Notes under the pieces: model-generated | The model's database searches: none | What the model was told of the DNA's origin: nothing | What the model saw: the letters and a program-made list of their open reading frames with translations, nothing else | NCBI RefSeq assembly: GCF_000473365.1 | Contig: NZ_KI421517.1 | Coordinates: 1,323,363-1,387,362 of the forward strand | Origin: Adhaeribacter aquaticus DSM 16391 | GTDB lineage: Bacteria > Bacteroidota > Bacteroidia > Cytophagales > Hymenobacteraceae | Reading direction: 5' to 3' | DNA: 64,000 nucleotides | In this document: piece by piece, positions 56,886 through 64,000 of the stretch | How the letters are laid out: each line of letters begins with the position of its first letter | Position numbering within the stretch: position 1 is the first letter of the stretch | Made by a program: the position numbers and the translations under genes

Positions 56886-57185
56886 ATGAAAAAAGTAATC
56901 TTCGCCCTGGCTCTTTTAGTACAAACTGCTTTCGCTTTCGCTGGTGAAAATACCCAGGCTATTGCGCACACCAAAAATGATGATGTAAAATTATTTAAAC
57001 AACCGTCTACTAAAACCGAAGTTGTTAAAACTTTAAAAAGTGCTGATGACTTAGTAGTAGTGCGTAAGTTCAATAATCACTGGACCATTGTAACTGTAAA
57101 TGGTGAGGTAGGTTATGTAAGGTCTGTTAGCTTAAATAAATCAAAAGAATCTAAAATTGCTTTAGCTAAACCTGAAAATAATTAG
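56886..57185 (+). CDS. Small exported SH3-like protein, paralogue 1
   Basis: 99 aa. A signal peptide MKKVIFALALLVQTAFAFA is followed by one bacterial SH3-like domain: DDVKLFKQPSTKTEVVKTLKSADDLVVV, then HWTIVTVNGEVGYVRSVSL. It has a Lys-rich tail (KSKESKIALAKPENN). It is paralogous to the genes at 61766 and 63410, most strongly in the signal peptide and the WxIVxxNGxxGYV strand. Bacterial SH3 domains often bind peptidoglycan or other envelope polymers. It ends in a normal terminator, without the hairpin array of its relatives. Confidence 0.82.
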   Translation: MKKVIFALALLVQTAFAFAGENTQAIAHTKNDDVKLFKQPSTKTEVVKTLKSADDLVVVRKFNNHWTIVTVNGEVGYVRSVSLNKSKESKIALAKPENN

Positions 57186-61228: not shown

Positions 61229-61574
61229 AGCAGGCTTTTTCCGCTGGGGTTACTGGCAATAGTATATGGCTATTAATCCTGGCTTGTCTCATTAATTGGT
61301 CTCCTTGCTGCTTCCTGTTATGTTTCTGGTACTCCGGGTTCAGTTCTAATAGTACCCTAACGGCTGATTAATTATTTGCCAGTTTTACATTTATATCTAC
61401 AAATTATTTATTTAAGATTTTATAAGAGGCTGCAAAGGAACGAGCTTGTTCTTGGTATAAGTGGCCTTCATATAATAAAAGTCTTTACCAGGTGTATACA
61501 TCCAAGTTTTACAAAAGTAGTGTAGTAATCCTATCAACAGGTATCTTATATACTTCACTTTTTCTCTCTGGCAC
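61229..61574. other. Intergenic region, no gene seen
   Basis: About 345 bp after DUF983 with no coding frame or clear terminator. The regulatory region of the SH3 gene at 61766 begins at 61575. Confidence 0.4.
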
Positions 61575-61612
61575 TGTTCTACTTCCGAACATTAGCGTCC
61601 GGAAGTAGAACA
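61575..61612. promoter_or_regulatory. 38-bp dyad, likely activator (enhancer) site 1
   Basis: Two 17-bp arms with 15 of 17 matched positions surround TTAG: TGTTCTACTTCCGAACA on the left and its near complement on the right. The outer 14 bp (from CTGTTCTACTTCCG) are perfectly paired. It lies 62-100 bp upstream of the -24 element at 61674, the usual place for a sigma-54 enhancer-binding protein. The same architecture occurs at 63221-63258. Confidence 0.65.
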
Positions 61613-61673
61613 GTTTCTTAGCCAATTAAGCCTTGAAAAAACTATTTTAAGCAATCAGGGAACTTTTTTAAAG

Positions 61674-61690
61674 TTGGCATGCAAGTTGTA
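61674..61690 (+). promoter_or_regulatory. Sigma-54-type -24/-12 promoter before SH3 gene 61766
   Basis: TTGGCAT-GCAAG-TTGTA has the GG and TTG elements at the correct spacing. It lies 75 bp upstream of the ATG and downstream of the dyad at 61575. Confidence 0.7.
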
Positions 61691-61765
61691 ATTTGTTTAT
61701 CAGAAGCCGCAAATTATAAGGCCTCAACAGTTTACAATCTGAAAATACGCTGATCTTATAAAACT

Positions 61766-62038
61766 ATGAAAAAAGTAATTTTTACCCTAGCTCTTTTAGT
61801 ACAAGTTGGTTTTGCTATGGCCGGTAGCAAAGTAAGGCTAGCCCAGGTCCGTCATGAAAATGTTAAAATGTTTCAGCAAGCAGGTACCTCCACTGCGGTT
61901 CTACAAACTTTAAGTACTACCGATAAAGTAGAATATGTGCGGAAACATAATGCTCATTGGGCTATTGTAACAGCCAATGGAAAAGCTGGATATGTTTTGC
62001 TTTCGGAAATAGCTAAACTAAAAGCAGGAGCTGAATAA
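61766..62038 (+). CDS. Small exported SH3-like protein, paralogue 2
   Basis: 90 aa. Signal peptide MKKVIFTLALLVQVGFAMA, then one SH3-like domain: RHENVKMFQQAGTSTAVLQTL, then VEYVRKHNAHWAIVTANGKAGYVLLSEI. It is very close to the gene at 63410 (the segments MFQQAGTST, QTLSTTDK and NGKAGYVL are identical) and more distant from 56886. It is periplasmic or envelope-bound; a peptidoglycan-binding or sensing role is inferred from bacterial SH3 domains. It has a sigma-54-type promoter and a nine-hairpin 3' tail. Confidence 0.85.
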   Translation: MKKVIFTLALLVQVGFAMAGSKVRLAQVRHENVKMFQQAGTSTAVLQTLSTTDKVEYVRKHNAHWAIVTANGKAGYVLLSEIAKLKAGAE

Positions 62039-62079
62039 TTAAGGTTTTTATTGTTGTTTGTTTTTGGTTTTACTTACCT

Positions 62080-62363
62080 GATGAACCCGTAAGTTCATCC
62101 CCTGCCTTTAGGCTGAGCCCGTAAGCTCTCCTGTTTAACCCACCATGAACCCGTAAGTTCATGAGCAAAAAGATAAACCTGTAAGTTTATCCTGATTTAT
62201 ATAGGCCCGTAAGCCTGATAACACAATGATAAGCCCGTAAGCTTATTCTCCTAAAATAAAGTGTGCCCGTAAGTATACTTTCTAATCCAGTGCCAGCACC
62301 AGGGAGCCTGAGAGCTCCTTGTGCCAAGTAAAAAAAGGTGAACCTGTAAGTTCACCTTTTTTT
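62080..62363 (+). repeat. Tandem array of nine hairpins with constant hexaloop (array 1)
   Basis: Nine stem-loops lie directly after the SH3 gene. The six-base loops start at 62087, 62119, 62151, 62179, 62207, 62235, 62267, 62308 and 62344. Six loops are CCGTAA, two are CTGTAA and one is CTGAGA, always closed by C-G. Stems of 4-14 bp differ in sequence but remain paired: ATGAAC/GTTCAT twice, GAGC/GCTC, ATAAAC/GTTTAT, AGGC/GCCT, ATAAGC/GCTTAT, AAGTGTGC/GTATACTT (with two G-U pairs), GGAGC/GCTCC and GGTGAAC/GTTCACC. Constant loops with covarying stems indicate selection on RNA structure. Confidence 0.85.
62330..62363 (+). terminator. Last hairpin of array 1, an intrinsic terminator
   Basis: A 14-bp stem (seven A-T pairs, then GGTGAAC/GTTCACC) closes the loop CTGTAA and supplies seven Ts. 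It is both the ninth member of the array and the transcription end. Confidence 0.9.
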
Positions 62364-62483
62364 ATTTAATGTCTCCTCAAGTTTTAGTTTGTGCTATTAC
62401 CTTACAGGCTGAACTCCAATATAACCTTACCGGCAATAGCTTTATATAAGCCTTACAAAGAAAACAATTATTGCAATTAGTGT

Positions 62484-62537
62484 AAATTGTCACTGGTTCA
62501 GAGAAAAGCCCATAGTACAGGCGTAGTCTGACAATTT
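62484..62537. promoter_or_regulatory. Possible inverted repeat upstream of hsp20
   Basis: AAATTGTCA at 62484-62492 and its complement TGACAATTT at 62529-62537, about 100-150 bp upstream of the -24 element at 62637. The spacing would suit an activator site, but the sequence is unlike the CCGAACA dyads. The rest of 62364-62636 shows no gene. Confidence 0.35.
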
Positions 62538-62636
62538 TTAAGTTACTATATCCTGAAGAAGTATACTACACTGAAAAAATTTCATTTCAAGCTCCTGTTT
62601 GTAGCTGGTATTCTGTCAAAAATTCATTTTTTTAAA

Positions 62637-62653
62637 TTGGCATTTCACTTGTT
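62637..62653 (+). promoter_or_regulatory. Sigma-54-type -24/-12 promoter before hsp20
   Basis: TTGGCAT-TTCAC-TTGTT matches the same pattern as the three SH3 promoters, 56 bp before the Hsp20 ATG. Confidence 0.65.
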
Positions 62654-62696
62654 ATAAGCAAGTTGTTAAAATTAATCATAAGTTAAATCTTAAAAT

Positions 62697-62702
62697 AGGA
62701 GG
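62697..62702 (+). promoter_or_regulatory. Strong ribosome-binding site of hsp20
   Basis: AGGAGG lies 7 bp before ATG 62710. A perfect Shine-Dalgarno is unusual among the genes here and suggests strong translation. Confidence 0.75.
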
Positions 62703-62709
62703 ATTAGTT

Positions 62710-63168
62710 ATGGGACCTTTAGTGAAGAATAATCGAAGCTTATTTCCAGGCATCCCGTCCTTTTTTGATGATATGTTAACGCGGGATTTGTTTAACTGGC
62801 CGATGAACCACAGCAACTCCAATGGTAATTCTGTTCCGGCTGTTAACATAAAAGAAACAAACGATGCCTTTGAATTAGAGGTAGCTGCTCCTGGTATGAG
62901 CAAACAAGACTTTAGAATTGAGCTGGACAATAACCTGTTAGTAATTTCAGCTCATAAAGAAGATAAACACGAAGAGCAGGACGAAAAAGGTAACTATGCC
63001 CGCAGAGAGTTCAGTTATCAATCCTTTAGCCGTTCTTTCAGCTTACCTGAAAGATTAGTGAAAGGAGAAGAGATCTCTGCTAAATACATAGATGGTGTTC
63101 TGCACATTACGGTTCCAAAAGCTGAAGAAGCTAAGGTTAAGCCGGCTAAGCAAATAGCTATAGAGTAA
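62710..63168 (+). CDS. Hsp20/alpha-crystallin small heat-shock protein
   Basis: 152 aa. An N-terminal segment typical of bacterial Hsp20 (FPGIPSFFDDMLTRDLFNW) precedes the alpha-crystallin domain (VPAVNIKETNDAFELEVAAPGMSKQDFRIE), which closes with YIDGVLHITVPKAEE. It is a cytoplasmic ATP-independent holdase that keeps unfolded proteins soluble. It has its own sigma-54-type promoter and a strong ribosome-binding site, placing it in the same regulon as the flanking SH3 genes. Terminator 63172-63191. Confidence 0.96.
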   Translation: MGPLVKNNRSLFPGIPSFFDDMLTRDLFNWPMNHSNSNGNSVPAVNIKETNDAFELEVAAPGMSKQDFRIELDNNLLVISAHKEDKHEEQDEKGNYARREFSYQSFSRSFSLPERLVKGEEISAKYIDGVLHITVPKAEEAKVKPAKQIAIE

Positions 63169-63171
63169 CAG

Positions 63172-63191
63172 AAGGCGGGCTTTCCCGCCTT
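63172..63191 (+). terminator. Intrinsic terminator of hsp20
   Basis: An 8-bp GC-rich stem (AAGGCGGG / CCCGCCTT) with a 4-nt loop and T-run, 4 bp after the stop. Confidence 0.92.
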
Positions 63192-63220
63192 TTTTATTAC
63201 TACACTTTGGTTAGGGTGAT

Positions 63221-63258
63221 TGTTCTGATTCCGAACATAGCTGTTCGGGTTTAGAACA
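63221..63258. promoter_or_regulatory. 38-bp dyad, likely activator (enhancer) site 2
   Basis: TGTTCTGATTCCGAACA, then TAGC, then a near-complement arm with 14 of 17 pairs. It matches the dyad at 61575-61612 in arm length, 4-bp centre and in TGTTCT...TCCGAACA. It lies 61-98 bp upstream of the -24 element at 63319. Confidence 0.65.
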
Positions 63259-63318
63259 TTTTTATTCTTAATAATATTGAATAAGGGCTTTTTTTTGAGT
63301 TAGGGAACATATTTACAA

Positions 63319-63335
63319 TTGGCACGCAGCTTGTA
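63319..63335 (+). promoter_or_regulatory. Sigma-54-type -24/-12 promoter before SH3 gene 63410
   Basis: TTGGCAC-GCAGC-TTGTA, the best match to the RpoN consensus among the four. It lies 74 bp before the ATG, the same distance as at the paralogous gene 61766. Confidence 0.72.
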
Positions 63336-63409
63336 ATTATGGTAATACAAGCCGATTAAGGCTTGCAAAATGAATAAAAGTATTGTGTAACCAATTGATC
63401 TTTAAAACT

Positions 63410-63685
63410 ATGAAAAAAATTATTTTTACCCTCGCCCTTTTAGTACAGGTTGGTTTTGCTATGGCCAACAACAATGAATTTACTTTAGCAAAAGTTCGGC
63501 ACGAAAACGTTAGAATGTTTCAGCAGGCAGGTACTTCTACTACGGTTGTACAAACACTAAGTACTACTGATAAAATAGAGTATGTGCGTATGTATAACGA
63601 TGAATGGGCTATTGTAATGGTAAACGGAAAGGCCGGCTATGTATTGGTTTCAGAAATTATTAAGCTGAGAACCGAAGCGAAATAA
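63410..63685 (+). CDS. Small exported SH3-like protein, paralogue 3
   Basis: 91 aa from ATG 63410, which begins the signal peptide MKKIIFTLALLVQVGFAMA; the frame extends nine codons upstream to a TTG that I reject. The SH3-like domain (RHENVRMFQQAGTSTTVVQTL, then EWAIVMVNGKAGYVLVSEI) is nearly identical to that of 61766. It is the third member of the family and, like 61766, has a dyad, a sigma-54-type promoter and a downstream hairpin array. Confidence 0.85.
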   Translation: MKKIIFTLALLVQVGFAMANNNEFTLAKVRHENVRMFQQAGTSTTVVQTLSTTDKIEYVRMYNDEWAIVMVNGKAGYVLVSEIIKLRTEAK

Positions 63686-63720
63686 GGTAGCTTCTAAATT
63701 ATACCCTTGATTCATATATA

Positions 63721-64000
63721 AGCTACCCCGAAAGTTGGCTATCAAAAAGAAGGTAGGGCCATAAGTTCTCCCGTATTAGTGAAAAGTGAACCCGTAAGTT
63801 AGCTTATGATAACCAGACCCGTAAGTCTGTCTGAATTGATAGGGTTCGTAAGTCCTGAAATGCAAGAATAAGGCCGCAGCTTAATACATTTAGAAACGTG
63901 CGCCTGTAAGCTCATTTTCTATTAATTAAATTTCCTAAATACCGAAGAACCCGTAAGTTTTTTAAGTTAATCAGTAGTAAGGCGAACCCGTAAGTTCACC
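63721..64000 (+). repeat. Second hairpin array with the same hexaloop (array 2), cut by window edge
   Basis: At least seven stem-loops follow the SH3 gene at 63410. Loops start at 63728 (CCGAAA), 63792 and 63819 (CCGTAA), 63846 (TCGTAA), 63904 (CTGTAA), 63951 and 63988 (CCGTAA). Degenerate copies lie near 63759 (CCATAA) and 63874 (CCGCA). Stems include CAGAC/GTCTG, AGGGT/GTCCT with G-U pairs, AAGAAC/GTTTTT with a G-U pair, and GGCGAAC/GTTCACC with one mismatch. This array is more worn than array 1 and no terminator is reached before the window ends. Confidence 0.75.

Follow-up and report, generated by a model that had tools for sequence, protein, structure and literature searches.

Tandem hairpins with a common CYGUAA loop downstream of an SH3 gene in Adhaeribacter aquaticus and their counterparts in Bacteroidota

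Nine consecutive hairpins, which share a hexaloop while their stems differ and yet are paired, lie on the + strand at positions 62080–62367 of a 64,000-nucleotide stretch of the Adhaeribacter aquaticus DSM 16391 genome (hereafter the window; positions are counted from its first base). We lean, with slightly better than even confidence, towards reading this array as a structured RNA of the 3′ untranslated region (3′ UTR) that displays CYGUAA to a trans-acting partner, and as a member of an undescribed class of tandem hairpins in Bacteroidota. No earlier report of CYGUAA hairpin arrays was found in the literature searched, chiefly papers open to all readers.

Anatomy of the array and its surroundings

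The hexaloop is CCGUAA in six hairpins, CUGUAA in two, and CUGAGA in one, and successive loop starts are spaced by 32, 32, 28, 28, 28, 32, 41, and 36 nt (Table 1). A recount of the loop positions confirmed the nine loops, the loop counts, and the eight spacings reported in the first-pass annotation, and its description of stems that differ freely but remain complementary, G-U pairs included, agrees with both the stem count and the fold. The extent it had given, 62080–62363, is right at the start and too short at the end, as the last hairpin reaches 62367. The array had also been placed in the 3′ region of an SH3 gene; it does adjoin that gene, but it starts 41 nt past the stop codon and therefore lies downstream of the coding region. 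No open reading frame (ORF) of 60 aa or more covers it. Hairpin 9, which carries the only U-run of the array, is terminator-like by inspection and is absent from the list of a simple terminator scan.

Elsewhere in the same genome, a stem of at least 4 bp flanks 20 of the 645 other CYGTAA sites, counted on both strands of the window and of a 400-kb sample. Dinucleotide shuffling of the region, repeated 1000 times, gave at most two hairpins per shared hexaloop (5/1000 shuffles) against five observed, a count that omits the first hairpin, which stands at the region edge. The minimum-energy fold of the + strand from 62076 to 62370 contains all nine hairpins (z = -8.73, with 0 of 200 shuffles folding as well), and each of them also forms when folded alone.

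Table 1. Positions of the hairpins, genes, and putative control elements in the window.
Feature	Position	Strand	Loop start	Evidence
Hairpin 1, loop CCGUAA, 7 bp	62080–62099	+	62087	Hairpin search, fold of whole array
Hairpin 2, loop CCGUAA, 4 bp	62115–62128	+	62119	Hairpin search, fold of whole array
Hairpin 3, loop CCGUAA, 7 bp	62144–62163	+	62151	Hairpin search, fold, single-hairpin fold
Hairpin 4, loop CUGUAA, 7 bp	62172–62191	+	62179	Hairpin search, fold, single-hairpin fold
Hairpin 5, loop CCGUAA, 5 bp	62202–62217	+	62207	Hairpin search, fold, single-hairpin fold
Hairpin 6, loop CCGUAA, 7 bp	62228–62247	+	62235	Hairpin search, fold, single-hairpin fold
Hairpin 7, loop CCGUAA, 9 bp with G-U pairs	62258–62281	+	62267	Hairpin search, fold, single-hairpin fold
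Hairpin 8, odd loop CUGAGA, 8 bp	62300–62321	+	62308	Hairpin search, fold, single-hairpin fold
Hairpin 9, loop CUGUAA, 18 bp, A-run and U-run, terminator-like with array loop	62326–62367	+	62344	Inverted repeat, hairpin search, fold, single-hairpin fold, inspection
Palindrome upstream of SH3 gene, 18-nt arms, 94% complementary	61573–61614			Inverted-repeat search
Sigma54-like -24/-12 element TGGCATGCAAGTTGT	61675–61689	+		TGGCAN6TTGY, -91 from SH3 start
Small SH3-domain gene, 90 aa, array 3′ of gene	61766–62038	+		PF08239 SH3_3, 23.4 bits, below curated cut-off of 27
Sigma54-like element TGGCACGCAGCTTGT of SH3 paralog	63320–63334	+		Motif scan
SH3 paralog, 91 aa from inner ATG	63410–63685	+		ORF list, protein search, Pfam
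Second, eroded array 3′ of SH3 paralog	about 63785–64000	+		Loop search, hairpin search, fold

The protein encoded upstream of the array has an N-terminus that resembles a signal peptide by eye. Between this gene and its paralog lies an Hsp20 gene (Pfam) with a sigma54-like element of its own, read from the sequence at 62638–62652. The genus has an enlarged family of small SH3 proteins, with 46 genes in eight genomes; a third member in the window (56886–57143, corresponding to G000:C1:1380248-1380505) precedes a terminator-like hairpin whose loop is not that of the array (L079). The motif TGGCAN6TTGY occurs no more than 250 nt upstream of 26 of 60 SH3 genes, where the background expectation is 0.0019 per 250 nt, and of the nine array-bearing SH3 genes six have the element and three lack it. 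RpoN was found in seven of eight genus genomes, the one miss being a genome that is 78% complete. Judging from these motifs, many members of this gene family appear to make up a sigma54 regulon, and since sigma54-like elements precede both SH3 and Hsp20 genes and RpoN occurs in the genus, the array-bearing SH3 gene looks like part of a sigma54 stress unit. The palindrome at 61573–61614 may be a site for a sigma54 activator; a palindrome upstream of the SH3 paralog, at 63222–63261, was also noticed by eye. A scan for sigma70-type promoters gave 12 sites in the window region against 7.6 expected.

Behind the SH3 paralog the second array has kept its loops while its stems have decayed. The loops are CCCGTAAG at 63791, 63818, 63950, and 63987 and CCTGTAAG at 63903, and the overall folding is not significant (z = -0.59, with 27 of 100 shuffles as good). 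Its last hairpin has a C-A mismatch in the stem and ends on the last base of the window, and a T-rich tail follows beyond it. Genome-wide, CCCGTAAG is little commoner than its reversed control (154 against 125 sites), and among the first 100 of these 154 sites hairpin clusters occur only at the window locus, two other close pairs having been inspected. At G000:C1:1533812 two CCCGTAAG sites stand 65 nt from each other; they form no hairpins and were rejected as an array. No set of dispersed target sites for sponge competition was found.

Loop, stems, and distribution in Bacteroidota

A pair pattern, run on 78 relatives including the genome itself, matched 18. Nine clusters of this pattern belong to three genus genomes (G000, G001, and G002), and all nine lie directly downstream of an SH3 paralog on the same strand, the paralogs having been located by protein search independently of the arrays. 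One contig of A. aerolatus NBRC 106133 has two arrays. One more pair in the genus, a tenth, belongs to G003 and does not appear among the matches listed for the two-hairpin model at E 0.3. Altogether, 9 of the 46 SH3 genes of the genus are followed by an array, 5 by just one CYGTAA hairpin, which in one case is weak, 2 by a terminator with the reverse-complement loop, and 30 by none of these. The single hairpins behind SH3 genes in G003 (two genes), G004, and G006 are terminator-like and have the stem of hairpin 9, GGTGAAC/GTTCACC. At the locus L093 (G005:C1:3788973-3790295) the terminator-like hairpins behind two SH3 genes have the loop TTACGG on this same GGTGAAC stem; as TTACGG is the reverse complement, these hairpins read CCGUAA on the opposite strand.

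The C-G closing pair, which the first-pass annotation regarded as shared, does close all nine hairpins of the window array (9/9). It is not retained in relatives, where T-A, A-T, and G-C also close the loop, and some units of G001 and G002 read GGAAG-CTGTAA-CTTCC or TAAAT-CCGTAA-ATTTA. The invariant part is therefore the hexamer CYGUAA, and not the closing pair.

Covariation of the stems was assessed in two ways. In 22 hairpin pairs, whose units were pre-selected for at least four paired bases, two-sided changes occur at all ten base pairs (10/10), 95.9% of cells are paired, and 79 cells are compensatory against 22.5 in shuffles. A second test, free of selection on the stem, used 92 distinct units from 30 loci, picked by loop and closing pair alone: at stem positions 2–6 they pair with their own partner in 97, 99, 91, 82, and 67% of cases, against 73, 79, 77, 56, and 43% when matched with other units from their locus. 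Where the neighbourhood is conserved, orthologous arrays likewise show compensated changes of the stem over a constant loop, for example from CCCAGCC/GGCTGGG to ACCTGTC/GACAGGT; when their loops do change, they switch most often between CCGUAA and CUGUAA, and a few units are degenerate. Relatives thus show the opposite of conserved stems with a free loop, and the contrast with REP and CRISPR repeats that had been proposed for the window, a conserved loop on free and complementary stems, extends to other Bacteroidota. Compensatory change in the stems around an unchanging CYGUAA marks the loop as the conserved part, and presumably as the one that a partner recognises.

In the whole genome collection a triple-loop pattern was found in at least 119 stretches, plus 22 viral stretches. 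Of these 141 stretches as listed, 17 contain three or more hairpins, each with a stem of 4 bp or longer, and no fewer than two different inner stems among them; among the matches listed, 15 of the 17 come from Bacteroidota, one is unlabelled (L181), and one, the only pass labelled outside the phylum, is a 24-nt tandem repeat of a gammaproteobacterium (L205). The gene upstream of L181 is a tRNA pseudouridine synthase, of the same kind as on the Chitinophagales contig L140. Five further stretches (L114, L122, L124, L189, and L220) are array-like and fail the strict count through repeated inner stem bases or short stems. A viral origin was rejected, as none of the 22 viral stretches passed the hairpin test. 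The triple pattern occurs in 21 of 395 Bacteroidia genomes (about 5%), spanning 11 families, against 4 of 395 for the reversed control; one of the 21 (G698) also turns up with the reversed control, and its sequence is that of a constant tandem repeat. A covariance model built from the 22 hairpin pairs (two-hairpin model R1) had matches in 7 of 395 genomes of the phylum (E 0.001, strict filters), including a match in G304 that looks coding, and in 21 chosen genomes it found further small arrays that the triple pattern had missed. The largest arrays hold 12–13 hairpins.

The arrays are patchy across Bacteroidota and mostly intergenic, and their neighbourhoods are unrelated: the neighbours examined include HSP70, thymidylate synthase, tRNA pseudouridine synthase, TatD DNase, phosphomannomutase, and rhodanese, with outer-membrane and secreted proteins added by eye. 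In a distant member of the phylum, eight CYGUAA hairpins stand directly 3′ of an HSP70 (dnaK-like) gene (L283, G210:C44, 7606–7850, - strand), a further stress gene that precedes an array. Several arrays would need a promoter of their own, because the upstream gene points away from them. By eye, a putative TTTTACTTTnAGAAA-like promoter is common to intergenic arrays. Among the 38 arrays with 150 nt on both sides, a terminator follows the last hairpin in 20 on the CYGUAA strand and in 9 on the other strand; together with the sigma54-like promoter of the SH3 gene, this excess suggests that the window array is transcribed. In 4 of the 36 clusters examined, the hairpins fall within an ORF called on the opposite strand, which in one case is 657 aa long. 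Many arrays have A-rich linkers by eye. In parts of the arrays at two loci (L298 and L299, in G559 and G755), short linkers (about 8 nt) alternate with long ones (about 18 nt), as if the hairpins worked in pairs. Two contigs of G767 end inside or right beside CYGUAA arrays (L364 and L365), so draft genomes may under-report them.

Comparable RNA families and candidate readers of the loop

Rfam 15 gave no match at gathering score in the window or in 20 array loci, and a permissive scan of 61500–64000 gave 13 sub-threshold matches that are chance-like. Taken as analogies, the closest known systems are CsrB/RsmZ in logic and CcsR1-4 of Rhodobacter in genomic setting. CsrB and RsmZ are RNAs that sequester CsrA through GGA hairpin loops. 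The arrays resemble them in their many small hairpins, presumably on one transcript, with a conserved loop motif, variable stems and linkers, and, in some species, several loci per genome. CsrB and RsmZ differ in that their loops are GGA and not CYGUAA, and in that they are bound by CsrA, whereas CsrA (PF02599) had no match in the 25 array genomes searched, the controls Escherichia coli, Bacillus subtilis, and Thermotoga maritima being positive. Some array copies, moreover, stand behind protein genes, and sequestration by the arrays is something that we infer. The loop motif of CcsR1-4 is CCUCCUCCC. These small RNAs of Rhodobacter sphaeroides are reported to be processed from the 3′ UTR of ccaF1, a gene for a small RNA-binding protein (PMC8625941). 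They share with the window array repeated units in the 3′ UTR, putative in Adhaeribacter, of a small stress-response gene. Phylum, loop motif, and gene are different.

Two further families offer partial parallels. ANTAR-binding hairpins and sponges of the EutX type are tandem hexaloop hairpins, of which a multivalent copy is able to sequester a dimeric regulator, and the alternating short and long linkers of some arrays fit that picture. The ANTAR hexaloop has A at position 1 and G at position 4, a rule that the array loop C-Y-G-U-A-A fails. The ToxI RNA of type III toxin-antitoxin systems also consists of tandem repeats of about 30–40 nt; its repeats are near identical and precede a toxin endoribonuclease, whereas array stems differ and, among the neighbours examined, no gene is consistent. 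Pfam named no toxin among 20 array neighbours, 8 of which had no family at E 0.001 or sub-cut-off matches only.

Post-transcriptional control in Bacteroidota is poorly understood, and the familiar RNA-binding regulators did not single out a reader. Hfq had no match in the 47 genomes searched (26 with arrays and 21 without). For ANTAR (PF03861) none of 31 genomes was over the cut-off, with two sub-threshold matches, and no control genome was positive either. RRM proteins are present in 10 of 13 genomes and were not found in G000, G001, and G560; this is the family of RbpB, reported as a global RNA binder of Bacteroides (PMC11697453). CsrA, Hfq, ANTAR, RRM, and PyrR, which is taken up below, were thus all negative or non-discriminating as readers. 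Mimicry of the tRNA-Tyr anticodon (CUGUAAA) was considered as well, and is unlikely with a six-base loop in which C dominates at the place of U33. A bS6:bS18 site, which contains CCG, is also unlikely given C or U at loop position 2. The arrays fail the defining features of CsrB (GGA loops and CsrA) and of PyrR sites. If they are multivalent hairpin RNAs, their loop code is new and so, probably, is their reader.

Alternative explanations and the proposed role

The strongest competing account is that CYGUAA is simply a favoured loop of terminator hairpins, and that the array blocks exonucleases or secures termination with no loop-specific reading. We consider it clearly less probable than recognition of the loop by a partner; all the same, an mRNA-stabilising structured tail has to be taken seriously as a rival, most of all for the copies in Adhaeribacter. 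Several arrays end in a terminator hairpin that carries the array loop, and one such hairpin stands behind the SH3 genes of three other genomes of the genus (those of G003, G004, and G006, described above). In the 400-kb sample of the A. aquaticus genome, 3 of 127 terminator-like hairpins carry CYGTAA on one strand where uniform loop use predicts 0.02. A looser first count agrees with this result, and a larger one (26 CCGTAA among 109 terminator hexaloops) was set aside, most of its loci having been chosen for arrays. The same figure speaks against the account too: as only 3 of 127 terminator-like hairpins use the loop, CYGTAA is not a general terminator loop. The window array, furthermore, has its U-run at hairpin 9 only, and stabilisation alone demands no single loop sequence on free stems. 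Two of the three CYGTAA hairpins lie on the strand opposite the T-run. Outside arrays, the occurrence of CYGTAA in terminator-like hairpins hints at dispersed sites at RNA 3′ ends.

That the loops instead pair with another RNA, through kissing or antisense contacts with a target UUACRG, is in our view improbable. UUACGG would be a partner for CCGUAA and CUGUAA alike, by G-C or G-U pairs, and C or U at loop position 2 would suit pairing to G; a target of 6 nt is very common, however, and the lack of Hfq matches in the 47 genomes also argues against such pairing.

A loop-reading regulator of the PyrR type seems very improbable, in spite of a likeness between the loops. The RNA hexaloop bound by PyrR has the consensus CNGNGA and is closed by C-G. 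The wider form C-N-G-N-R-A, which like the PyrR loop is usually C-G closed in the arrays, covers CYGUAA as well as the odd CUGAGA at 62308; CNGNGA itself fits only the latter, the other eight of the nine window loops being CYGUAA. The PyrR family passes the cut-off in 21 of 22 genomes, a set with 20 array-bearing members, but it is nearly universal in the genome set and the arrays are not. PyrR-binding RNA is a leader element of pyr genes, whereas the arrays do not lie near pyrR: at 26 PyrR-type loci no CYGUAA hairpin was found, and nine CNGNRA hairpins were scattered among them. Among the array neighbours examined, one gene, for thymidylate synthase, is related to pyrimidines.

We give as little credit to the binding of a small ligand by tandem hairpin loops, as in mini-ykkC RNA, the guanidine-II riboswitch. 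Mini-ykkC has two hairpins, which stand before genes, and the arrays differ from it in loop and in location: they lie behind genes or between unrelated ones, not before a consistent gene, and have up to 13 hairpin copies. Both consist of small hairpins in repetition whose terminal loop is conserved; that of mini-ykkC is reported as ACGR (PMC2864571).

Least probable of all is repetitive DNA with no function as RNA (REP, minisatellite, CRISPR, or coding repeat), which has in its favour duplicated blocks in some arrays (L122, L213, L296, and G767) and the opposite-strand ORFs of 4 of 36 clusters, and against it stems that differ and covary within a unit that is not conserved, as well as the lack of an ORF of 60 aa or more across the window array; REP elements conserve a palindromic stem where the arrays conserve the loop, and CRISPR has long identical repeats with unique spacers where the window array is constant only in loop and closing pair.

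Returning to an RNA that offers CYGUAA loops to a trans-acting partner, the array would form the 3′ UTR of the SH3 transcript, which sigma54 probably controls. Its stems, being interchangeable, would serve only to hold the loops out, and the loop would be what the partner recognises. The partner would most likely be an RNA-binding protein, and that such a trans-acting protein reads the loop in the manner of a CsrA sponge is a sensible inference from analogy. With many copies of the loop per molecule, the RNA would be multivalent and could concentrate or titrate its partner following the CsrB/RsmZ logic; by that analogy, titration of a factor that reads CYGUAA would be the likeliest use. In Adhaeribacter the availability of the partner might in this way be tied to the sigma54-driven SH3/Hsp20 response.

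A more specific scenario is put forward tentatively, and we regard it as possible rather than probable. In those array-bearing Bacteroidota in which CsrA and Hfq gave no match, a dedicated regulator would read CYGUAA mainly at RNA 3′ ends, that is, in terminator hairpins, and phylum-specific decoy RNAs with many hairpins would titrate this regulator; in Adhaeribacter the decoy would form part of the 3′ UTRs of sigma54-controlled SH3 stress genes. Because nature already shows the stems to be exchangeable, a mutation test of loop against stem would be a clean one. With one invariant loop in up to 13 copies per locus, the arrays are a ready-made bait for an RNA-binding regulator in Bacteroidota.
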